9,399 nt of DNA from an uncultured Fibrobacterota bacterium. GTDB taxonomy: Bacteria > Fibrobacterota > Chitinivibrionia > Chitinivibrionales > CAIOZP01. Below the pieces are notes generated by a model. That model made no database searches and was not told where the DNA came from. It worked only from the letters and a program-made list of their open reading frames with translations. A program made the translations under genes and the position numbers. Positions 1 to 9,227 of this stretch are shown here, one piece after another (position 1 is the first letter of the stretch; every line of letters begins with the position of its first letter). The stretch lies in contig CAIOZP010000304.1 in NCBI GenBank assembly GCA_903862805.1, positions 1-9,399 of the forward strand. The letters run 5' to 3'.

Positions 1-484
1 AGTACGCTTGGTGAACTGCAGGTGCCCGCAATTCCGTACACCTTCCGCAACCGGTGCAATTATTCCAATTGATTTCCGGAAGAAATCTGATATTTGCTGT
101 GATAGTTCCATTGGTATCAGAGATTATCTTATAGGAAACTTTTGTCGCCTGACTCCAGTTATCAGCAGTTACTGGAGATGAAAAGATACGGATTTCATAG
201 CCATCGGCTCCTTCGACCACTGGGAATTTCACAGTAAATCCCCGGCATACCGTATCATAATGCTTGATTGGTTCACTGTCTATGTTCGCCGCTATCATTG
301 CCTCTGCAAAGGGCCAGACGGTCGTATCTAAACGTCCTTCAAACACCGAAATTGAACCCACACTCGCCGGAGCACCCTTCCCACCTGTCGCTTTATTCCC
401 AATCAAATTTGAACAAGAATAAAATACGGTGAACAGCACGGCACCACCGGCGATCAAAAGCATTCTGCGGGTAAACTGATTCAT
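1..484 (-). CDS. Lipoprotein with ferredoxin-like Cys motif, partial (continues past the window)
   Basis: Start at 484 with GGAGG six bases upstream; 161 codons are visible before the window ends. The N-terminus has TRRMLL followed by a hydrophobic stretch and FYSC, so it looks like a lipoprotein signal (C24) with a twin-arginine-like motif, which would fit Tat export of a folded iron-sulfur protein. Residues about 45-138 are beta-rich and resemble a fibronectin-like domain, with one Cys at 80. At residues 143-149 there is CTGCGRC, the start of a [4Fe-4S] motif, but the expected fourth Cys position holds Arg153. More Cys residues may follow outside the window. It lies 19 bases after the polyferredoxin gene and is probably in the same operon. 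Confidence 0.78.
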   Translation of the reverse strand, partial: MNQFTRRMLLIAGGAVLFTVFYSCSNLIGNKATGGKGAPASVGSISVFEGRLDTTVWPFAEAMIAANIDSEPIKHYDTVCRGFTVKFPVVEGADGYEIRIFSSPVTADNWSQATKVSYKIISDTNGTITANIRFLPEINWNNCTGCGRCTELRAPAVHQAY

Positions 485-503
485 ATCGACCTCCAACTAC
501 TCA

Positions 504-2012
504 TTACTTTTTTGCAAGCGGCTTCCGCTTTGGCGGACGTTTGATTCCGTAGATTCTTATCGCTTTGTCTCCGTTGACCGGACACTGGAATTCACACGCT
601 CCGCAGCCGACACATTTCACACGATTGACAACTGGAGAATCATAGGATTCGCCAGCGGCATCGGTATGCTGAACCGAATCTAATGCCTCATACGGACAGT
701 TGTCGATACAGACAGTGCAGGTGCGCTCGCAGTTCCATGAACGGCAGCGACCGCGTTCGACCACGGCAACACCGACCTTTGCTTTTTTCTTGTCGGCTAC
801 GACAATCGGTTCAAGCGCACCGGTCGGACATGCAGAACTGCACCGCGTACACTCCGGCAGACAGTAGCCAAGTCGACCTACAATCTGCGGAGTGTTCCAG
901 TTTTTCAATCCTTCAGACAATGGCACCGGATGCAACGCGCTGTTCGGACACGCGCCCACACATGCCTGGCACGTGAGGCAGCGCTCGAGGAACAGATCTT
1001 CGTCGACAGCGCCCGGCGGTCTGACCGGCCCTGGCTCGGCAATCTGCCTGATTGGTGCCGGACGCAGAAGTGCGGGCATCAGCGCAAGTCCGCCTGCAAG
1101 TCCCAGCAGCGCGTGACGCTTGCGCAGATCGGGATTATCGACCTTGATCTTATGCGGAAGTGCAAGAGTGAACCGCCCACACTTGCGTTTATCGGCGGTG
1201 CAGTTGCCGCACAGAATGCATTCGGCTTTGACGATTCTTGTGAAATCACCGGAAGGAATCGCCCTTGTCGGACAATGAACCGAAGTACAAACTCCACAAC
1301 CTCCGCCTTCGCGGCCGCAGGTTGTTATGCGCTTGACAAAAGAGAATCGGCTGAGCAGCCCAAGAAACGCTCCCGACGGGCAGATGTACTGACACCAGAA
1401 CCGGCGATCGAGAAAAGTCCCTGCGAATACAGCAATCAAGAGCAAAAGCGTTCCGAAAACCCCGCCAATGGCACCGTTGAGAACCCAGGTATTCTTGGCA
1501 TAGATTTTACCGACAGCACCCGGAATTAGTGCGGCAGCACTCATGGCTTCGGGTCTTGCAAGCAGAGTTGCGAAGCGCACCGAAATCAGCATCGGATCCA
1601 TGAACAGCGGGAAGATCATTCCGGCGGAGGCAAGAACAATCATTGCAAAAAGAATTAGATATTTCGTGCGATGCAAAGTGAGCGGCAAGCGAAATGGCGG
1701 TTTTATTTTTCTACCGGCACGGACAACCGCGTCAACAGCATCGACAAGTGTTCCGAGCGGACAGATCCAGCTACAGAAAAACCGGCCGAATAGAATGGTC
1801 AGCAGGATCATACCACCGGCAAGCGTCACAGCACCGACAACAAATGTTCGGGCCGCTATCGAAGTAATTACGGCGGTGAAGGGTTCAAGCCGCATGAACC
1901 ATGCAAGTGGCGAGACATGGCCTTCGTGCCAGAGTCTGCCATAACCGGCAAGCACCACGAGGAACATCAAAAACAAGATCGTCTGGGAGGCAATTCTGAA
2001 ACGGCGAAGCAT
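504..2012 (-). CDS. NapH-NapG-type membrane polyferredoxin fusion
   Basis: Predicted 502-residue membrane iron-sulfur protein. Residues 1-225 form a NapH/MauN/CcoG-like part with about four membrane segments and the paired motifs GRFFCSWICPLG (77-88) and RRFWCQYICPSG (203-214). Two Cys clusters follow (C232, C239, C242, C247 and C265, C268, C271, C278). A further hydrophobic segment (300-316) is preceded by RKRH. The C-terminal part resembles NapG/MauM, with four Cys clusters: 345-355, 384-395, 423-439 and 467-477. Known NapH/NapG pairs carry electrons from quinol to periplasmic acceptors; having both in one chain suggests a dedicated trans-membrane electron wire. The start follows GGAGAG; the stop is TAA. 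It sits between the TauE/DsbD-like gene and another lipoprotein with a ferredoxin motif. The membrane topology of the C-terminal part is inferred. Confidence 0.9.
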   Translation of the reverse strand: MLRRFRIASQTILFLMFLVVLAGYGRLWHEGHVSPLAWFMRLEPFTAVITSIAARTFVVGAVTLAGGMILLTILFGRFFCSWICPLGTLVDAVDAVVRAGRKIKPPFRLPLTLHRTKYLILFAMIVLASAGMIFPLFMDPMLISVRFATLLARPEAMSAAALIPGAVGKIYAKNTWVLNGAIGGVFGTLLLLIAVFAGTFLDRRFWCQYICPSGAFLGLLSRFSFVKRITTCGREGGGCGVCTSVHCPTRAIPSGDFTRIVKAECILCGNCTADKRKCGRFTLALPHKIKVDNPDLRKRHALLGLAGGLALMPALLRPAPIRQIAEPGPVRPPGAVDEDLFLERCLTCQACVGACPNSALHPVPLSEGLKNWNTPQIVGRLGYCLPECTRCSSACPTGALEPIVVADKKKAKVGVAVVERGRCRSWNCERTCTVCIDNCPYEALDSVQHTDAAGESYDSPVVNRVKCVGCGACEFQCPVNGDKAIRIYGIKRPPKRKPLAKK

Positions 2013-2020
2013 CTTCTCTC

Positions 2021-3064
2021 CTACGGAAGTATTTCCCCGGAAGACGGCATGGCTTTCATTCGAAACATCGATCCATTACGGTCTGAGCGGAAATAAAACT
2101 CGGCAAAAAATGTAACAATCTTTACGGCGTATGCCGAATCGACCTTGGCTGTTGGTACCGGCAGTATCACGGCGAAACGCCCACCCTTCTTGTAAGTGCT
2201 GTCGGCAGTAGGATGTTTACTGTCCCAATCGCTCGAAACAAATACGTAGGCATTTTGCGGAACCGATTCGAGGCTACCCGCACAGCGCGTCTCGCCTTTT
2301 CCATTCTGATGCTGACGAAGCGCCGCAATCAGCGGCATGACTGAAGAACTGTCGTCGGAAAGAACAAAGTTTTCTTTGCCTTCAAGCAGATTGACCACAG
2401 GTCGCGTGTCGGATGCGGCGGCCTTCTGGGCGGACAGTGACTCATAGAAATCTACCGCCGACTTTGCAGATTGAGCCGCGAACCAGATACCGACAACAAC
2501 TGATCCCCAAAGCGCAACACGGCGCATGAAGGTCTTGTTGCTCATGATCCCAAAAATTATTACAGGAAGAAGCCAGATACTTGATCCGACAAAAAAGGCG
2601 ACAAAAACAAGTATACCGGCAACAGGCCCAGAAATATCAACCGCGTCAACGACAACGCCAAGGAAGGGCGGACAAAGATTTATTCCGGTAACGAGTCCGA
2701 CAATGAACGGACGATCAGCGAAGCCGGTCATCTTGGAAACTGCGCAACCTTTATCGCGCCGGTTCTGCCGAAAAGCCGAAACAAAAAGCATGACCGTTAC
2801 GAGCATATATCCGATAGCCGTCACTAAAAGCTTATGTTCCGGTGCGATCTGTAGACCGAGCCAGCCAAGCAGTGCCCCGATTGCTGCATAAGCGATCAGT
2901 CGCCCTAAGGAAATTTCGAGAATCGAGAGAATGCTTTTTGTCGGATTGATCTTCCGCATCATCAGGTACGGCGCATAAACCGGCCCGCAGGTAAGAAGAC
3001 AGGTGCCACCAAGTGAAAGACCAAGCAACAATCCGCGAACCAGATGCGACCAGATCAGATCCAT
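2021..3064 (-). CDS. Polytopic TauE/SafE- or DsbD/CcdA-like membrane protein with soluble C-terminal domain
   Basis: Predicted 347-residue inner-membrane protein. About six membrane segments fill residues 10-205. The first carries GGTCLLTCGPVY (C22, C26) and a later one GINLCPPFLG (C131), the layout of the TauE/SafE-like and CcdA/DsbD transmembrane families. The latter shuttle reducing equivalents from cytoplasmic thioredoxin to the periplasm using one Cys in each half. Residues about 215-347 form a soluble domain with a single Cys (C261), not an obvious thioredoxin fold. The start overlaps the barrel gene, with a weak ribosome site, so coupling is likely; 8 bases separate it from the polyferredoxin gene. 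It may supply reductant for the CxxU or Cys residues of exported proteins, or help assemble extracytoplasmic clusters. Annotation as a sulfite exporter would be unreliable. Confidence 0.8.
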   Translation of the reverse strand: MDLIWSHLVRGLLLGLSLGGTCLLTCGPVYAPYLMMRKINPTKSILSILEISLGRLIAYAAIGALLGWLGLQIAPEHKLLVTAIGYMLVTVMLFVSAFRQNRRDKGCAVSKMTGFADRPFIVGLVTGINLCPPFLGVVVDAVDISGPVAGILVFVAFFVGSSIWLLPVIIFGIMSNKTFMRRVALWGSVVVGIWFAAQSAKSAVDFYESLSAQKAAASDTRPVVNLLEGKENFVLSDDSSSVMPLIAALRQHQNGKGETRCAGSLESVPQNAYVFVSSDWDSKHPTADSTYKKGGRFAVILPVPTAKVDSAYAVKIVTFFAEFYFRSDRNGSMFRMKAMPSSGEILP

Positions 3065-4410
3065 GTTTCTACACCAATGGAAAACTCGAGAGAAGGAGCT
3101 TTCCAGTCAACAACCGACTGCGAGGACGGCGGTGCGGGATACCAGCGGTAGGCTGCTCCGCCGGCGATCGTCATATTGTTGAAAACAGCAGCACCAGCGT
3201 GCGGCATCAACTTCAGATCGAGCGCGCCGTCAAAGCGCGAATATTCGTATTTGCCTGATGTCATCTGATAATCCCAATAATTTCTCACCGACGGCTCGAC
3301 CGACAGATGTTTTCCAATGCCAATACTGCTTCGCGCAAAGGCATCCATGCGCGGAAACAGCGTTCCGGAGGTAACATAATATCCGCCTTCAATCGCGAAT
3401 TTCTTTTTCACCTTCTTGACGGAAACGAGATACGCCTGCTTGGTTGAAATGCTTCCAGCCTCGATCATGGCATCGCCCTTGATGTAGAACATCGGCAGAG
3501 GAACGAGTATGCCACGGAAATTCAAAGTCGAAACTGCGCCGGTCTGAAAACCCTTCTGATCCATTTCGGACGACATGATGTAGCGGCCGCCCAAATTGCC
3601 GGAAAGCATCACATTCCCGCGCGCCACCTGCATGTCGGTTCCGATTCCACCGTGAACGTTGGCCAAGTTGTAGCCTGTCCACTGATTGAAATCGTCCTTC
3701 ACAACACCGCCAGCCGCCACGAAAAGCTTGTGCCCGATAATCCGGAATGCCCCGTCACCGAAAAACCACAGATCATCGTCATGAAGATTTGTAACCGGCG
3801 CAGGATCGTCTGGGTTGCGTGAGAGACAATCGAAACGCAGCCTTGTCAGCTGCGAAAAGATCGAAATATCAACGCGGTTCTTCTGCATGATGCCAGCTAA
3901 ATTTACACCGACAATCCTATGCGGAAGAAGACGTTCGCCAAAGAAATAGCTCGAGTTGTCGGCAGTGTCGTTACCAAGAGAAACGTCTTTCGCCTTTTGC
4001 AGAAATTCTGCGAAGCCTTCGACTCTCGCGGTAAACCCCTTGCGGGACCTGAGCGAAATCGAAGCTGGAACATGAATCACATCGGGACGCGTAACTCCAC
4101 CGATCAGAACTTTCGTGAGAGGAAACTGGAAATCTGCCGATGGATTCAGATCGAAAAACACCGTGCCCGGCAAGGGAACTGTCATCGTTGTGCCGGAATC
4201 ACCTTTGGACGAATCGACCCAGGTTGAATCTTTTTTGAATAGTTCAGCTTCAAGTCTGCCGTGGACATTCGCAAAAGTAGCCGCGTTCACAAATCCGCCA
4301 TGACCAGAACCGTCACCGGCACTGATCCAACCGGCCGTGATCCCTGCATTCTGCTCGGCGATAGCCGGAAGAGCCGCAAATATTACAAAAAGTAATTTCG
4401 ATATTTTCAT
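3055..4410 (-). CDS. Predicted outer-membrane beta-barrel protein
   Basis: Predicted 451-residue protein, from ATG at 4410 (signal peptide MKISKLLFVI to PAIA); the in-frame ATG at 4449 lies inside the upstream ferredoxin gene and is less likely. The mature chain has alternating hydrophobic/polar, aromatic-rich segments, few cysteines and many Gly/Asp turns, as in outer-membrane barrels. It ends with EFSIGVETWI, a final strand with a hydrophobic terminal residue, the usual barrel-assembly signal. I recognise no named porin family and no cofactor motif. It follows the lipoprotein ferredoxin by 4 bases, and its stop overlaps the next start by 10 bases. By position it could be the outer-membrane conduit or receptor for the ferredoxins and secreted selenoproteins; this is inference. 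Confidence 0.75.
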   Translation of the reverse strand: MKISKLLFVIFAALPAIAEQNAGITAGWISAGDGSGHGGFVNAATFANVHGRLEAELFKKDSTWVDSSKGDSGTTMTVPLPGTVFFDLNPSADFQFPLTKVLIGGVTRPDVIHVPASISLRSRKGFTARVEGFAEFLQKAKDVSLGNDTADNSSYFFGERLLPHRIVGVNLAGIMQKNRVDISIFSQLTRLRFDCLSRNPDDPAPVTNLHDDDLWFFGDGAFRIIGHKLFVAAGGVVKDDFNQWTGYNLANVHGGIGTDMQVARGNVMLSGNLGGRYIMSSEMDQKGFQTGAVSTLNFRGILVPLPMFYIKGDAMIEAGSISTKQAYLVSVKKVKKKFAIEGGYYVTSGTLFPRMDAFARSSIGIGKHLSVEPSVRNYWDYQMTSGKYEYSRFDGALDLKLMPHAGAAVFNNMTIAGGAAYRWYPAPPSSQSVVDWKAPSLEFSIGVETWI

Positions 4411-4414
4411 TTTT

Positions 4415-4669
4415 TCACCACACCGCATCGTATGGACAGGCACTGACACACTTACCGCACTTGATACACTTGGTCGGATCGATCACGGCCTTGCCGTCTA
4501 TAAGCGAAATTGCATCAGCGTTGCAAACAACCACACATTTGCCGCAGCCTTTGCACGAGCTGCTGTTAACCGAAAGCGTCGCGCCCTGCGTAGGCGCACC
4601 GAACTTGCAAGAAACCGCAAGCCCGCACATGAAAACCAACACTATTGTCAAACGGGAAAATGACTTCAT
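4415..4669 (-). CDS. Lipoprotein 2x[4Fe-4S] ferredoxin
   Basis: Predicted 84-residue membrane-anchored ferredoxin. I start it at 4669, where ATG overlaps the previous TGA; the frame is open further upstream to 4795, but that part only mirrors the preceding gene. The N-terminus is a lipoprotein signal ending in GLAVSC, with C21 as the likely lipidated residue. The mature part is a minimal ferredoxin with C39-x2-C42-x2-C45-x3-C49 and C68-x2-C71-x2-C74-x3-C78-P, linked by a typical DGKAVIDPTKC stretch. It ends at a TGA just before the barrel gene. Lipid anchoring would hold this carrier on the periplasmic face of the inner or outer membrane, suited to passing electrons to the outer-membrane barrel or secreted partners (inference). 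Confidence 0.87.
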   Translation of the reverse strand: MKSFSRLTIVLVFMCGLAVSCKFGAPTQGATLSVNSSSCKGCGKCVVVCNADAISLIDGKAVIDPTKCIKCGKCVSACPYDAVW

Positions 4670-4929
4670 TTGCACGCACCGTATGAACACACGTAGATGC
4701 ACTTGCGGCAGCTGATGCAGGTAACAGGATCGATAACCGCCTTGCCGTGAACGAGAGTAATCGAATTCGCCTTGGGCGGACAGATTCTGATGCAATCACC
4801 ACAGCCAGAACAGCGGGATTCGGAGATATGCGGCACCACCTTCGCCGCAGTAACAGCCACCGCCGAAACCGACAGCGCAGCAGCGGCAAGGGCTATGTAA
4901 ACAGCTTTTTTGAATGACAAAATTTTCAT
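4666..4929 (-). CDS. Exported 2x[4Fe-4S] ferredoxin
   Basis: Predicted 87-residue ferredoxin. I start it at 4929 rather than the in-frame ATG at 4944 because the later ATG overlaps the previous stop (ATGA) and begins a clean Sec signal peptide (MKILSFKK to VAVTAA). Two classic bacterial motifs follow: C40-x2-C43-x2-C46-x3-C50-P and C71-x2-C74-x2-C77-x3-C81, each expected to bind one [4Fe-4S] cluster. A ninth Cys, C86, is the second-last residue, and the Pro after the second motif is replaced by Ser. Ferredoxins are normally cytoplasmic, so a Sec-type signal implies cluster assembly outside the cytoplasm or unusual export. It is likely one link in an electron relay with its neighbours. Confidence 0.88.
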   Translation of the reverse strand: MKILSFKKAVYIALAAAALSVSAVAVTAAKVVPHISESRCSGCGDCIRICPPKANSITLVHGKAVIDPVTCISCRKCIYVCSYGACK

Positions 4930-5375
4930 TGTGCCTTTGTCCATACGGTATCGAAAACAGAATCAATAAGCATAGACTGCCTGTAAGCCTGCATAACAAC
5001 AATATAGGCAGAGTCGGGAAGCAAGCCGCCGAAACTTGTCTCGTTTACACTTTCGGGTCGCGCCGGATAAGGTGCTGCGGTTACATTGTTGTAAGAAAGA
5101 AAAGCTGGAGTGGCTACGGTACGAATACCGATTTTCAGATCAAGTGTCTTATCGTCTATAAATGAGTACTGAACCTTGATCTCGTTAGCCCCGACGTTTC
5201 CGCCATAAATCCAAGCTGCATGAGATAAGCTGTCAGTTGCCGGAACATCGGCACCAATAGCCGCCGGAACGAAAGGCCCACGGTTCAAACTGTCGGAACA
5301 TGCCACAAAGAAAATTGATACGATTGCCGGAACGAGCAAGCAACAAAACAAATGTAATGATCTGGATTTCTTCAT
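4926..5375 (-). CDS. Small predicted lipoprotein, function unknown
   Basis: Predicted 149-residue lipoprotein. The signal sequence ends in FFVAC with the lipidation Cys at residue 26. The mature part is rich in beta-type segments; its end (GGLLPDSAYIVVMQAY, then VFDTVWTKAQ) resembles the last strands of a fibronectin type III-like fold. I see no cysteines after residue 26 and no cofactor motif, so it is not itself a ferredoxin. It starts within the stop of the preceding ferredoxin gene (ATGA) and ends within the start of the next (ATGA). Being embedded and coupled between two exported ferredoxin genes suggests a scaffold or assembly partner for them. No family is recognised. Confidence 0.8.
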   Translation of the reverse strand: MKKSRSLHLFCCLLVPAIVSIFFVACSDSLNRGPFVPAAIGADVPATDSLSHAAWIYGGNVGANEIKVQYSFIDDKTLDLKIGIRTVATPAFLSYNNVTAAPYPARPESVNETSFGGLLPDSAYIVVMQAYRQSMLIDSVFDTVWTKAQ

Positions 5376-5725
5376 TTCGCGGGAGCTTTATCCTCTGTGG
5401 CAGGCTTCGCAGCAGCCTTGTCTCCAGCCGCAGGAGCAGGCGCGACGGTCTTCGATTTGCTCAATGAACCCGCCGGACACACACTGAAGCAATCGCCTTC
5501 ACCCTGACACTTGGCAGGATCAATAACCAGAATGGTTTTACCCTTTACCTTGGCCTCGGAAATCGAGTTATTCTTACAGATGTCAAGACACGCACGGCAT
5601 CCATCGGTGTAGGTACAGGTCGAAGGATCAAGCACGTATGGATAAATCGGGCCTTTCGGCTTGGTTCCAGCCGCAATAACAAGTGGCAAAGCCACTACGG
5701 CTGCAATAATTAAAATTCTTTTCAT
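5372..5725 (-). CDS. Exported ferredoxin-like protein with one 4-Cys and one 3-Cys motif
   Basis: Predicted 117-residue exported iron-sulfur protein. Residues 1-20 form a Sec-type signal peptide with no twin arginine. Motif I is C37-x5-C43-x2-C46-x3-C50, with a first loop three residues longer than usual. Motif II is C73-x5-C79-x3-C83, where the second Cys of the CxxCxxCxxxC pattern is Glu76. In bacterial 7Fe ferredoxins, loss of one Cys usually goes with a [3Fe-4S] cluster, so this protein may carry a [4Fe-4S] plus a [3Fe-4S] or an incomplete cluster. Residues 91-117 are a flexible Ala/Pro/Lys-rich tail. An AGGGAG sequence precedes the start. The stop overlaps the next start (ATGA), implying translational coupling. 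Likely role: extracytoplasmic electron carrier; partners are inferred from the operon only. Confidence 0.85.
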   Translation of the reverse strand: MKRILIIAAVVALPLVIAAGTKPKGPIYPYVLDPSTCTYTDGCRACLDICKNNSISEAKVKGKTILVIDPAKCQGEGDCFSVCPAGSLSKSKTVAPAPAAGDKAAAKPATEDKAPAK

Positions 5726-5754: not shown

Positions 5755-5779
5755 AAAGGGGCAGATTGACTGCCCCTTT
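5755..5779 (-). terminator. Perfect GC-rich hairpin between paralog 3 and the ferredoxin operon
   Basis: AAAGGGGCAG (5755-5764) and CTGCCCCTTT (5770-5779) form a perfect 10-bp stem with a 5-base loop, 9 nt after the paralog 3 stop codon. On the minus strand the stem ends in UUU with little further U-tract. Only 29 bases separate it from the next start codon, too few for a full promoter. It probably acts as a partial terminator that lowers expression of the ferredoxin genes relative to the selenoprotein, unless a promoter lies inside paralog 3. Confidence 0.75.
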
Positions 5780-5788
5780 TAGTTTCAA

Positions 5789-6784
5789 TCAATGAACCAT
5801 CATTACAGAACGGGTGGCAGATCGCCCCTCAAACTGAAGTGTAAGAAACGCCACGCCATTTGCCTTGCCAAAACCAGAAAGCTCCGCCGATCCGCCGATA
5901 CCGGATGTAGTCGCAATCATTCTGCCTTTAGCATCATGAAGTTCGGCAATATATTTCCCTACATGCGGGAACGACATCCTGAACATACCCGGCAGAGACT
6001 CGATGCTTACACCTGTCATCCCAGATTTTGCAACTGGAATGATACCAGTTGATTCGTACGATAAAGTAAGCTTAGGTCTCTTCGTTGAATCGGCATATTT
6101 GCTTGAAGCGTAGAAGTAGCCTTTCTGAGTCAAAGCATCTTTGATAATCATCCCGAAATTCACGTCAGGATTCTGGACAAAATACTCCACGGCCGAAGTT
6201 ACATCTACAGTTATCCAGCTACTGTCCGCAGGAAGTGGTCCAAGGTACACCGGTGTCGAATTATGATCGCCACCACCAAGAACCGGAACCGAATACGCTC
6301 CCTTAACAGCATACGTATCTGCCCATGCCACGCCAGCCTGAGCATCGTTCCATGTAACCTCGTCTTTGTTCCATGACTTGGTCGCTACAAACAGCGAACA
6401 GTTCCAGTTTCCACCCTCGTCCGTCGCATCCTCTGTCATAAATCCACCCCGCGTCCACATCGGCCCAATGACGTGATACAACTGCAATGTCGCACTGTTG
6501 ACACTCGTACAACCACTCATACCCGAAAGATCAAATCGAATCGCGCCCTGCGCGTAAAGATCTCCTCAGGTGAGACAATCGCGCATGTAGTAGATCGAAG
6601 AATCCTTGAAATTCACCTTTGGCTCAAGCGTATCCGGACCGGCATGCGAGAGCATCGCATCTGAACAGCCAAGATAGCCGTTCACACCCTGCTGGTACAC
6701 CGCATTGACGGTCGCCGCAAAAGACGGTGCCACACTAATCGAGGCAACCGCAGCCGCAGCCATCAGTTTCAATCCGATTTTCAT
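5789..6784 (-). CDS. Secreted DNRLRE/CBM96-like selenoprotein, paralog 3 (TGA at codon 73 read as Sec)
   Basis: Predicted secreted protein of 331 residues, read through an in-frame TGA at 6566-6568. I chose the start at 6784, not the upstream in-frame ATG at 6838, because GGAGG sits just before it and it opens directly into a signal peptide (MKIGLKLMAA to SFAA). C40, C70 and U73 keep the shared spacing; C129 lies in the conserved NWNCSLFVA. The DNRLRE-like module has AIRFDLSG, SATLQLYH, EVTWNDAQAG, WITVDVTSAV and RPKLTLSYE, followed by the HDAKGR tail ending in RSVMMVH. The true stop is TGA and a perfect 10-bp hairpin follows it. Unlike paralogs 1 and 2, it sits directly before the ferredoxin genes, separated only by that hairpin, so it probably shares their transcript. 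Cysteines 319 and 326 of paralog 1 are absent. Function is unknown. Confidence 0.87.
6538..6568 (-). promoter_or_regulatory. Sec UGA codon and candidate bacterial SECIS hairpin, paralog 3
   Basis: After the TGA (6566-6568), the minus strand carries CGCGC-AGG-GCGCG at 6554-6542, a five-base-pair stem with an AGG loop starting 17 nt after the UGA. The only loop change from paralog 1 is G to A at its first base, which keeps a G in the second position. The lower GAU/AUU pairs can form across a bulge (6562-6560 with 6541-6539, or G with C6538). The stem core is unchanged in all three genes. Candidate by eye; not folded. Confidence 0.7.
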
Positions 6785-7143
6785 ATAACCTCCGCTACAA
6801 AAAATATTTCTAAAAGTAAGCGGCCTAAAAGTCCGCACGTTTTACAAAATATAAGCATTCAAAGCTCAAGTATGCTTTTTTTGTGACTGATTTAGCAAAT
6901 TTCCGCTTTTTCACAGATAAGCACACTCAAAACAGCAGTCATTTCCATGAATTCTTCCATTTAGACATCGCGTTCCGCCACCTTCTTGACATTATGCGAT
7001 GCCATCGTTCATTCAGAAGTGACTGTCTGGAGATAATATACGCATAAAATTCGTAGTATGGTGGGTGTAATATTTGACGAGAACAATTTGCGTTCACTCA
7101 AGTGACCAGAATATTTTTTGCGGATTAGTCAGACCCGAACCAA
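6785..7143. other. Intergenic region upstream of paralog 3, no gene seen
   Basis: About 360 bases between the hairpin after paralog 2 and the paralog 3 start. It is A/T-richer than its surroundings and has no convincing coding frame on either strand. It should hold the paralog 3 promoter, but I cannot place one firmly. A TATATT lies on the minus strand near 6847-6852, without a good -35 at the right distance. It lies just downstream of a small inverted repeat listed separately. Confidence 0.5.
6853..6877. repeat. Short inverted repeat (AAGCAT / ATGCTT) in the paralog 3 leader
   Basis: AAGCAT at 6853-6858 and ATGCTT at 6872-6877 form a 6-bp inverted repeat separated by 13 bases, 69-93 bases upstream of the paralog 3 start codon. 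Placed next to a TATATT sequence, it could be an operator or a weak hairpin. A repeat of this length may also arise by chance. Confidence 0.25.
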
Positions 7144-7187
7144 GGTTGAAACACTCGCCTTGTGATTTTAAGGCGGGTGTTTCAACC
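7144..7187 (-). terminator. Long hairpin after the paralog 1-2 pair
   Basis: An inverted repeat of 18 bases per arm (7144-7161 and 7170-7187) with an 8-base loop begins 9 nt after the paralog 2 stop codon. There is one mismatch, which would be G-U if transcribed from the plus strand and C-A from the minus strand. No clear U-tract follows on the minus strand, so it may be a factor-assisted terminator, an mRNA 3'-end stabiliser, or a dispersed palindromic repeat rather than a textbook intrinsic terminator. Confidence 0.6.
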
Positions 7188-7196
7188 AATTAGCCA

Positions 7197-8174
7197 TCAA
7201 CGTGAAATTACAAGAGACCTCGTATCCAAACGCCCTTCAAATTCCGATGATATAAATACAATACCACCGATTCCGGACAGCGACGCACTCGATCCATTTC
7301 CGGAAAGTGCCGCAAGCAGACGACCTTTCGCATCGTGAATCTTTGCCGAATACCGGCCATAATGCGGAAATGTCAATCTGATTCCGCCATTGATTGCCTC
7401 GAACTTTATTCCTGCTCCGCTTGATGCTTTGGCGGGAATAATTTCTGTGGTTTCGTATTTCAGTGATAGCTTCGGGCGCTTTGCTATGTCGGCATTTTTG
7501 GAGGAAGCGTAGGAATATCCCCTCTGTGTTTCCATATCCTTAAGTATGAAGCCAAAGTTTTTACTCGGATTTTTTATGAATGACTTTACTGCGGGTGTCA
7601 CATCAAATGTAACCCAAGTAGTATCCACCGGCAACAACCCTGCTGAGAACAAAGAGCTATCGTAGTTTCCTCCCCCCTTGATAAATGGAATCTGATTACC
7701 GGGGAATGAGTCATCCCACGCAACTCCAGCCTGAGAATTTCTCCATGTAACTTCATTGGGAACCCATGCCTGCCTTGCAACAAACAAACTGCAGTTCCAC
7801 ATACCACCTTCATTGTTGATGTCTTCCGACATCATTATCCCTTCGACCACCCACTGCGAAACAGTATTCTGATGATAAATCTGCAGTGTTGCGCAGTCGA
7901 TTTTGGCATCTGTATCAAGCTCTGGCAGATCAAACTTCAAAGCGCCCCGCGCATATTCATCGCCTCAGCCAAAACATTGCCCAATGAAATACGTCAAAGA
8001 ATCTTTGAAGTTAATATCCGGAAGAACCGTATCAAATCCTACAGACATCATCATCGCATCTGAACACCCACCATACCCGTCAACTCCCTGTTGCAAAGTC
8101 ACATTCACTGTTCCGGCCGATGCAAACGCGGCTCCGACCGACATAATTGCCATAATAATCTTACCAAATTTCAT
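7197..8174 (-). CDS. Secreted DNRLRE/CBM96-like selenoprotein, paralog 2 (TGA at codon 70 read as Sec)
   Basis: Predicted secreted protein of 325 residues, read through an in-frame TGA at 7965-7967. Residues 1-20 are a signal peptide (FASA-GTVN). C37, C67 and U70 keep the GC-x29-C-x2-U-GD spacing of the paralogs. The DNRLRE-like module follows: ALKFDLPEL, CATLQIYHQ, MWNCSLFVA (C128), EVTWRNSQAG, WVTFDVTPAV and RPKLSLKYE, then the HDAKGRL tail. The mature N-terminus is almost identical in DNA to paralog 1, with only synonymous differences over 73 nt, whereas the rest has diverged clearly. A GGAG sequence precedes the ATG. The true stop is TGA, so the same gene would use UGA both as Sec and as terminator, which requires a local signal. 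A long hairpin follows the stop. It is likely co-transcribed with paralog 1. Molecular function is unknown. Confidence 0.87.
7942..7967 (-). promoter_or_regulatory. Sec UGA codon and candidate bacterial SECIS hairpin, paralog 2
   Basis: Downstream of the TGA (7965-7967), the minus strand has GCGC-GGG-GCGC at 7952-7942, a four-base-pair stem with a GGG loop. The loop begins 17 nt after the UGA, exactly as in paralog 1. The outer pairs seen in paralogs 1 and 3 are weaker here because the flanks are A/U-rich (AAUAU against UUU). The codons forming the stem are the same as in paralog 1 except for third-position changes outside the core stem. This is a candidate only; it has not been folded. Confidence 0.62.
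8051..8123 (-). repeat. Near-identical 73-nt segment shared with 9092-9164 (copy in paralog 2)
   Basis: Second copy of the segment described for paralog 1. Differences fall only in third codon positions (Thr, Gln and Ser codons). Paralog 3 encodes a related peptide here, but its DNA is clearly different, so the sharing is between the adjacent pair only. Confidence 0.85.
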
Positions 8175-8201
8175 TTCAGCTCCATTTCCAAAAAGAGTTA
8201 T

Positions 8202-9227
8202 CTACCGTGTTTGAATAAGCGACCGCGTATATGTGTTCCCATCGAATTGACAGGTCAGAAACAACATTCCGCAATGATCACTTATTCCCGATAGTTGTGC
8301 GGTCTCCCCTCTTCCCGACACAGACACCACAAGCCGCCCTTTCGCATCGTGAAGCTTCGCCGAATATTGGCCCGAATGTGGGAAGGTCATTTTCACTGCA
8401 CCAGAAACCGCTTCGATCTTCATACCTTTTATCGAAGAATTCTCGACAGGAATTATGGCCGATGTTTCGTACGACAATGTCAGCTTGGGTCTCTGCGTCG
8501 GGTCTGAATACTTGGAGGAAGTGTAGAAATATCCTTTCTGCGTATCTTTATCTTTCAAAACGAATCCGAAGTTCTGGTCAGGATTCTGGATGAAGGAACT
8601 AATTGCCGATGTGACATCAATGGTAATCCAAGAGCTGTCAGCTGGCAAAACGGCTGTCGAAACCAGTGAAGAATTGTAATCGCCGCCGCCATGAACAAAT
8701 GGAACGAGATGACCGGGGAATGAATCTGCCCATGAAACACCAACCTGTGCTCTATTCCAAGTTATTTCATCCTTATTCCACGCTCTTGTGGCGACAAATA
8801 GAGAACAATTCCATCCGGCTCCTTCATCGGTTGCATCTTCTGTCAAAGAGTACACTGTATCCCATACGCCGCTTACAAGAACAGGAGTTGGTCGCCAATG
8901 CGGGCCAATTTTATGAAAAATCTGCAATGTTGCACTATTTACTTTTGTGCAACCTGTTATTCCAGAAAGATCGAACTTGATCGCGCCCCGCGCGTAGAGA
9001 TCGCCTCATATAAAACAATTTCGCATGTAATAAATCGTAGAATCTTTAAAACTGAGCGCAGACTCGACGGTATCCACTAACGCATGAGAAATCATCGCAT
9101 CCGAACACCCACCATACCCGTCAACTCCCTGCTGCAAAGTCACATTCACCGTTCCGGCCGATGCCGCCAAAGCGAGCCCGAGGGTCAGCACAGTGGCTGC
9201 TGTCAAAATTTTCCAGTCTGCTTTCAT
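8202..9227 (-). CDS. Secreted DNRLRE/CBM96-like selenoprotein, paralog 1 (TGA at codon 74 read as Sec)
   Basis: Predicted secreted protein of 341 residues, read through one in-frame TGA (9006-9008). Residues 1-24 are a Sec signal peptide with a cleavage-like AASA. Residues about 25-254 match the DNRLRE (CBM96-like) beta-sandwich pattern: a QQGVDGY start, GCSDAM where family members have D-[AT]-Y, AIKFDLSG, SATLQIF, EITWN (154-158), WITIDVTSAI and RPKLTLSYE (246-254). C41, C71 and U74 form GC-x29-C-x2-U-GD, identical in spacing in all three paralogs; C141 in WNCSLFVA is also shared. Residues about 260-341 are a C-terminal sorting-like tail with HDAKGR (293-298). Extra C319 and C326 occur only here, as does a short insertion near residues 111-127. 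The start is supported by GGAGG before ATG; the stop is TAG. The gene heads a pair with paralog 2 (27 bp gap). Function is unknown: a thiol/selenol redox or metal-binding role is inferred from CxxU. Confidence 0.88.
8979..9008 (-). promoter_or_regulatory. Sec UGA codon and candidate bacterial SECIS hairpin, paralog 1
   Basis: After the TGA (9006-9008), the minus strand carries CGCGC-GGG-GCGCG at 8994-8982, a five-base-pair stem with a GGG loop. The first loop base is 17 nt after the UGA, so 16 nt lie between them. Three more pairs, GAU with AUC, can close the base across an internal bulge (9002-9000 with 8981-8979). Bacterial SECIS elements are known to sit directly after the UGA inside the coding region, with a short upper stem and a G among the first loop bases, and to bind SelB. 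The fit is by eye only; no folding energy was computed. Confidence 0.7.
9092..9164 (-). repeat. Near-identical 73-nt segment shared with 8051-8123 (copy in paralog 1)
   Basis: This stretch encodes the end of the signal peptide and the mature N-terminus through GCSDAM. It matches 8051-8123 in paralog 2 with three differences, all synonymous. The rest of the two genes is much more diverged in DNA. This is compatible with recent gene conversion or with strong selection on this segment. Confidence 0.85.

Follow-up and report, generated by a model that had tools for sequence, protein, structure and literature searches.

Results

Three Tandem Genes With an In-Frame TGA

The DNA analyzed here is contig 304 (CAIOZP010000304.1; 9,399 nucleotides, hereafter the window) of the assembly GCA_903862805.1 from an uncultured Fibrobacterota bacterium, which comprises 3.13 Mb in 748 contigs and is 83% complete. 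Its minus strand carries three tandem paralogous genes, each with a single internal TGA in a frame that is otherwise open. Copy 1 (8202..9227) encodes a signal peptide, a CBM96-like domain (residues 25–254) and a tail domain (residues 267–340) and ends at a TAG; copy 2 (7197..8174) and copy 3 (5789..6784) both have TGA as their terminal stop. The internal TGA, read here as selenocysteine (Sec), is codon 74 of copy 1 (9006..9008, CFI-TGA-GD), codon 70 of copy 2 (7965..7967, CFG-TGA-GD) and codon 73 of copy 3 (6566..6568, CLT-TGA-GD). An initial annotation of this DNA had placed these TGA codons at one and the same column, and both the coordinates and the conservation of coding on either side bore this out. 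The identical spacing from an upstream GC motif that it described was also found, since the stretch from GC to TGA aligned without gaps in all copies, and the FDL and ATLQ sequences said to continue after the TGA were both present.

Copies 2 and 3 shared 56 and 60% identity, respectively, with copy 1. Over the 252–255 codons lying 3' of the TGA, dN among the three copies was 0.31–0.44, with a dS of 2.5 in one pair and saturation in the other two. Hence, protein-level selection persists downstream of the TGA. The frames would likewise be open if the organism read every UGA as an ordinary amino acid; nevertheless, the UGA is not simply reassigned, because copies 2 and 3 terminate at TGA, and this explanation was rejected on those terminal stops. 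The presence of a tRNA-Sec with the anticodon UCA and of Cys as the homologous residue (see below) also speaks against general reassignment, which is considered vanishingly improbable.

A Family With a Predicted Cys/Sec Pair

Relatives of the three genes were sought in several ways. Copy 1 used as a query gave matches in 9 of 60 genomes, and a separate contig search gave five family loci in two metagenome-assembled genomes, but none of the 18 pattern matches from a single-protein search of genome contigs was confirmed as a relative. A family profile built from 19 members was then applied in two scans, one over 167 genomes of the phylum, with up to 13 candidates scored per genome, and one over ten genomes covered nearly in full. 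The latter was the basis of a set of 33 matches above 117 bits, which is the fair denominator here, as the TGA-bearing genes were gathered for having the TGA. Among these 33 best matches, 31 had TGA at the column. They came from six genomes of one order, namely the source genome (5 genes), G001 (16), G007 (6), G027 (1), G031 (1) and G039 (2), so that 28 relatives were added to the three genes of the window. The two matches without TGA were one on the minus strand of G001:C156, with neither Cys nor Sec at the column, and one in G041:C102.

The CxxU motif noted in the initial annotation was present in the window copies, but family-wide it proved to be one of several pair forms: CxxU was found in 7 of the 31 genes, UxxC in 7, CU in 10 and UxxU in 4, whereas one gene had UU preceded by a Cys and two had Sec without a near Cys. 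A Cys or Sec partner at a spacing of 1 or 3 was therefore present in 28 of the 31, and the UU gene has its Cys four positions before. What is conserved across the family is the pair, and not one spacing or order. The member with two adjacent TGA codons, on G001 contig 20 (L067, 2741–3640, minus strand), was observed to have a hairpin with a GGUC loop behind them.

A form of the protein with Cys in place of Sec was also found. Among the homologues inspected from three protein searches (P0003–P0036, with P0001 and P0002 left out), P0013 alone had a Cys pair at the Sec site. In this metagenomic protein of 305 residues, CPGC stands opposite the UPGC of the G039 Sec gene, and the two proteins are 42% identical over 301 columns. 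The initial annotation had proposed asking whether homologues from genomes lacking Sec genes hold Cys at the TGA column; P0013, encoded on a metagenome contig of 1459 bases, does hold it. Remoter DNRLRE relatives were without the entire Cys/Sec pair.

A second conserved Cys lies upstream of the pair, in a GYxGC motif (IQDC in three shortened members). It was present in 29 of the 31 Sec genes vs. 4 of 17 pair-less homologues (Fisher 1e-6), the latter having been hand-picked for a readable motif and including cases in which one protein contributed two repeats; an earlier count on a subset had given 2 of 11. Such a coupling of three chalcogens would fit an alternative in which the UGA does encode Sec, but the pair and the upstream Cys41 bind a metal or metalloid ion or form a fixed structural selenenylsulfide, with no redox cycling. 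In the pair-less P0033 and P0034, a further Cys precedes the third strand in addition to the upstream Cys, which would suit a disulfide. On the other hand, Sec is costly for a mere structural bond, the order and spacing of the pair vary freely (CxxU, UxxC, UxxU, CU) and thioredoxin-fold genes adjoin some of the Sec genes. A metal-binding or structural site is regarded as rather unlikely, and the use of the pair in thiol/selenol redox chemistry is preferred.

A Hairpin Behind the TGA

According to PMC13188914, the bacterial Sec insertion sequence (SECIS) lies just 3' of the UGA, has G at the first two positions of its loop and usually leaves 16–37 nt between UGA and loop. Hairpins were searched for under the rule that the loop begins with G(G/U) or NG(G/U), short stems being allowed, and the same rule was applied to the controls. 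A hairpin fitting this rule was found in all 31 genes, 15–30 nt downstream of the last TGA. Its mean energy was -4.4 kcal/mol, compared with -0.55 for synonymous shuffles and -0.47 for other codons of the same genes; taken singly, 26 of the 31 hairpins were stronger than those of the shuffles, and 24 were stronger than those at other codons, at p ≤ 0.05. Combined Fisher p-values, in which related genes count as independent, were not relied upon. On the minus strand of the window, the SECIS-like hairpins have five pairs and a GGG loop in copy 1 (8982..8994), four pairs and a GGG loop in copy 2 (7942..7952) and five pairs and an AGG loop in copy 3 (6542..6554); that of copy 2, taken alone, did not fall below p 0.05 (0.065 and 0.137).

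An earlier and stricter search had recovered hairpins in 12 of the 31 genes at -7.5 kcal/mol and none of any kind in 6. It relied on the minimum fold of windows of at least 18 nt and therefore missed short stems. An Rfam search of the window at the gathering threshold gave no match, which was not counted against a bacterial SECIS.

Furthermore, covariation of the stem was analyzed in 24 of the 31 genes, aligned on the protein motif A-R-x-x in order to avoid a choice based on structure, with 500 synonymous shuffles as reference; the seven genes without this anchor were excluded. Pair (3,9) was formed in 23 of 24 genes (37% expected) and pair (0,12) in 21 of 24 (39% expected), and none of the 500 shuffles reached either value. 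Pair (3,9) was seen as CG, GC, TA and AT. Pairs (2,10) and (1,11) were fixed by the protein sequence, (-1,13) was weak (5/500) and (-2,14) was at background. The Arg codon in the loop was CGG or CGT in 22 of the 24 genes, although these genes use AGA most often for Arg. These results indicated covariation of the stem at codon positions that are silent for the protein, and the hairpin evidence is the strongest support for the selenoprotein reading.

Sec Machinery and Other Likely Sec Genes

The presence of selA, selB, selC and selD, a check proposed in the initial annotation, was answered in part by the source genome. It contained a tRNA-Sec over the Rfam cut-off, identified by ARAGORN as tRNA-SeC(tca), and a partial selD (304 bits), but searches for selA and selB detected neither gene in its 83% complete, 748-contig assembly. 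The five other TGA-bearing genomes all had tRNA-Sec, selA and selD over cut-off, and four of them had selB. A tRNA-Sec over cut-off was detected in 17 of the 60 genomes searched and in all six that carry the TGA family (chance 2.5e-4, ignoring relatedness). In G005 and G007, selA lies directly behind the tRNA-Sec. In the source genome, the tRNA-Sec on contig 6 (L048, 2312–2409) is followed by a phage-type integrase (PF00589; 2458–3711, minus strand). An element may thus have integrated at the tRNA gene, using it as attachment site, and selA and selB may lie beyond this insertion, on a missing contig.

Other genes served as controls for the decoding of UGA as Sec in this group. An in-frame TGA was found in selD of G001, G004, G005, G007, G027 and G031, and the formate dehydrogenase of G007 (1279 bits), the only one found over cut-off with a TGA, carried one as well; no formate dehydrogenase match was obtained in the source genome or four others. 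The source genome also contained three further TGA-bearing genes of AhpC/TSA-like type (UPSC, UGGC and UGSC) on contigs 94 (L161) and 122 (L162). Two of them had hairpins of the family's kind, with CGGGU or CGUGU loops, for which 9 and 18 of 500 shuffles were as good, and the third had no such hairpin (250 of 500). G001 contained three additional likely Sec genes, of which two are deiodinase-like (SUPPF, TUPPFC) and the other has RUGGC, at L051 (6207–7070, minus strand), L056 (539–1690) and L055 (1–681); their tails resemble the C-terminal domain of the TGA family.

The remaining alternative is that the TGA is a true stop, the three genes being in decay or giving N-terminal products of about 70 residues. 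Two observations weigh on its side and against Sec insertion: the failure to find selA and selB in the source genome, and the database records of copies 1 and 3 (217 and 216 residues), which start downstream of the UGA. They are opposed by the selection acting past the TGA, the retention of the column in 31 genes of six genomes, the covarying hairpin and the existence of a Cys form. Decay or sequencing error was rejected on the number of genes and genomes and on the hairpin, and a true stop is judged highly improbable. The proposal of a selenoprotein family made in the initial annotation was, in silico, strongly supported by the UGA column, the covarying hairpin, the Cys form P0013 and the tRNA-Sec, and we regard Sec insertion at the UGA as very likely.

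Scaffold and Probable Export

By fold and by profile score, the window proteins are predicted to be beta-sandwiches of the DNRLRE/CBM96-like type, the closest scaffold families being the DNRLRE domain (NF033679), Disaggr_repeat (PF06848) and CBM96 (PF24517). Copy 3 scored 32.9 with PF06848, under the cut-off of 33.9, and was over the cut-off for CBM96 and NF033679. No thioredoxin-like profile was found around the pair, the profile and fold scans giving the carbohydrate-binding-module beta-sandwich only. In the profile alignment, the Cys/Sec pair falls on the wall of the sugar groove of CBM96. Unlike the family, the CBM96 alginate module TM6-N4 (7vbo) and the chondroitin-sulfate module 8wab lack Cys at the positions aligned with the Sec pair. 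The alginate contacts of 7vbo given in PMC9971899 are Lys10, 22, 25, 27, 31 and Arg36; mapped by hand with an offset of 16, these residues were not kept in the family consensus.

The C-terminal domain resembles the tails of type IX secretion, with a structure match and a weak sequence match. The window proteins differ from type IX cargo in that neither Por_Secre_tail nor any other Pfam or NCBIfam tail matched them at 1e-3. SprA, of the type IX translocon, exceeded its cut-off in all 8 genomes examined. Export by type IX secretion is considered likely.

Gene Neighborhood

Neighboring genes were surveyed as open reading frames of at least 80 amino acids within 1.2 kb; selected ones were scanned with Pfam and the rest were judged by eye. 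No single neighbor was conserved across the loci, and at least 4 of the 27 had a thioredoxin-fold gene next to the Sec gene. In G031 and G039, an AhpC/TSA-type gene and a gene for a large DUF6029-like protein lie downstream of the Sec genes in the same orientation. The Sec gene of G001 contig 28 is flanked by an AhpC/TSA-type gene and by a large protein without a Pfam match, similar to the DUF6029-like one, and on G001 contig 18 the upstream gene is deiodinase-like and has an in-frame TGA of its own. A DUF362-like gene with a Tat-like start was also seen upstream of a Sec gene in G007 (L060, 3921–5150, over cut-off) and in G001 (L053, 5684–6925, under cut-off).

Downstream of the three genes, the window (2–5725, minus strand) encodes small 4Fe-4S proteins, two lipoprotein-like genes, a DsbD_2 protein and NapH/NapG-like proteins, a cluster that has the appearance of a chain carrying electrons through the envelope. 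The gene next downstream of copy 3 (5372..5725, minus strand) encodes a small 4Fe-4S protein that probably bears an export signal, a possible electron partner of the Sec proteins, and the DsbD_2 membrane protein (2021..3064, minus strand; PF13386, 61.2 bits) is a possible source of thiol electrons. Relatives of the lipoprotein at 2–496 were found in 2 of 167 genomes, both of which have the Sec family. These two genomes hold four relatives or copies, of which that of the window and that on G001:C228 adjoin Sec genes, and a NapH-like gene lies some 4 kb from the latter on the opposite strand; no Sec-family gene was found in the stretch read beside the copies at G000:C137 and G001:C130. Taken together, the neighbor links suggest a supply of electrons to the surface.

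Inverted repeats were spotted by eye 3' of copies 3 and 2 (window positions 5755–5783 and about 7146–7190) and were not listed by a terminator scan of the window. They may divide the region into separate transcripts.

Discussion

The proteins described here are best read as surface proteins exported by type IX secretion in which Sec is inserted at the UGA and forms, with a neighboring Cys, a thiol/selenol redox pair, and this reading as a whole is held to be reasonably probable. SelB with Sec-tRNA would read the UGA owing to the hairpin 15–30 nt behind it, and the signal peptide and the tail domain would direct the protein out of the cell. An old carbohydrate groove would have been converted to a Sec/Cys site, and exported partners of the thioredoxin-fold or DsbD-like type, whose genes lie close by, would keep this site reduced. 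The redox step, which we infer, is the weakest link; given Sec insertion and export, redox use of the pair is rather likely. More tentatively, the order might display an array of type IX-delivered surface selenoproteins, in which a three-chalcogen site (the upstream Cys and the Cys/Sec pair) in a rebuilt groove exchanges electrons or thiols outside the cell, fed by exported thioredoxin-fold, DsbD-like and ferredoxin-type partners from neighboring genes; this would amount to a surface redox system based on selenium.

Going by their family names, the selenoproteins of the MtrB/PioB-type barrel, the ExtKL cytochrome and the FCYXU TonB-dependent receptor would also have Sec outside the cytoplasm. 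The folds of these entries of the table in PMC13188914 are other than that of the window family. The CxxU, UxxC and CU selenoproteins of the same source resemble the family in the in-frame UGA, the hairpin behind it and the Cys/Sec pair, but most of the characterized ones have a thioredoxin-like fold, unlike the proteins of the window. The initial annotation knew of no selenoprotein family built on a DNRLRE/CBM96-like module, and this agreed with what was found: none of the 119 prokaryotic selenoprotein families and subfamilies tabulated there is DNRLRE or CBM96, and the words carbohydrate, secreted and disaggregatase do not occur in that source (PMC13188914). Additionally, no description of a DNRLRE, carbohydrate-binding-module or type IX selenoprotein family was found in the open-licence literature, judged partly by title. 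Selenoproteins as such are known; what was not found described is a Sec site on a scaffold of this type, with so many variants and gene copies.

The family illustrates how such genes get missed, with database entries that begin behind the UGA. At least 31 genes with Sec on a scaffold of the sugar-binding type, probably at the cell surface, would extend the known locations and modes of selenium use in bacteria and would offer a testable case for why Sec repays its cost outside the cell.
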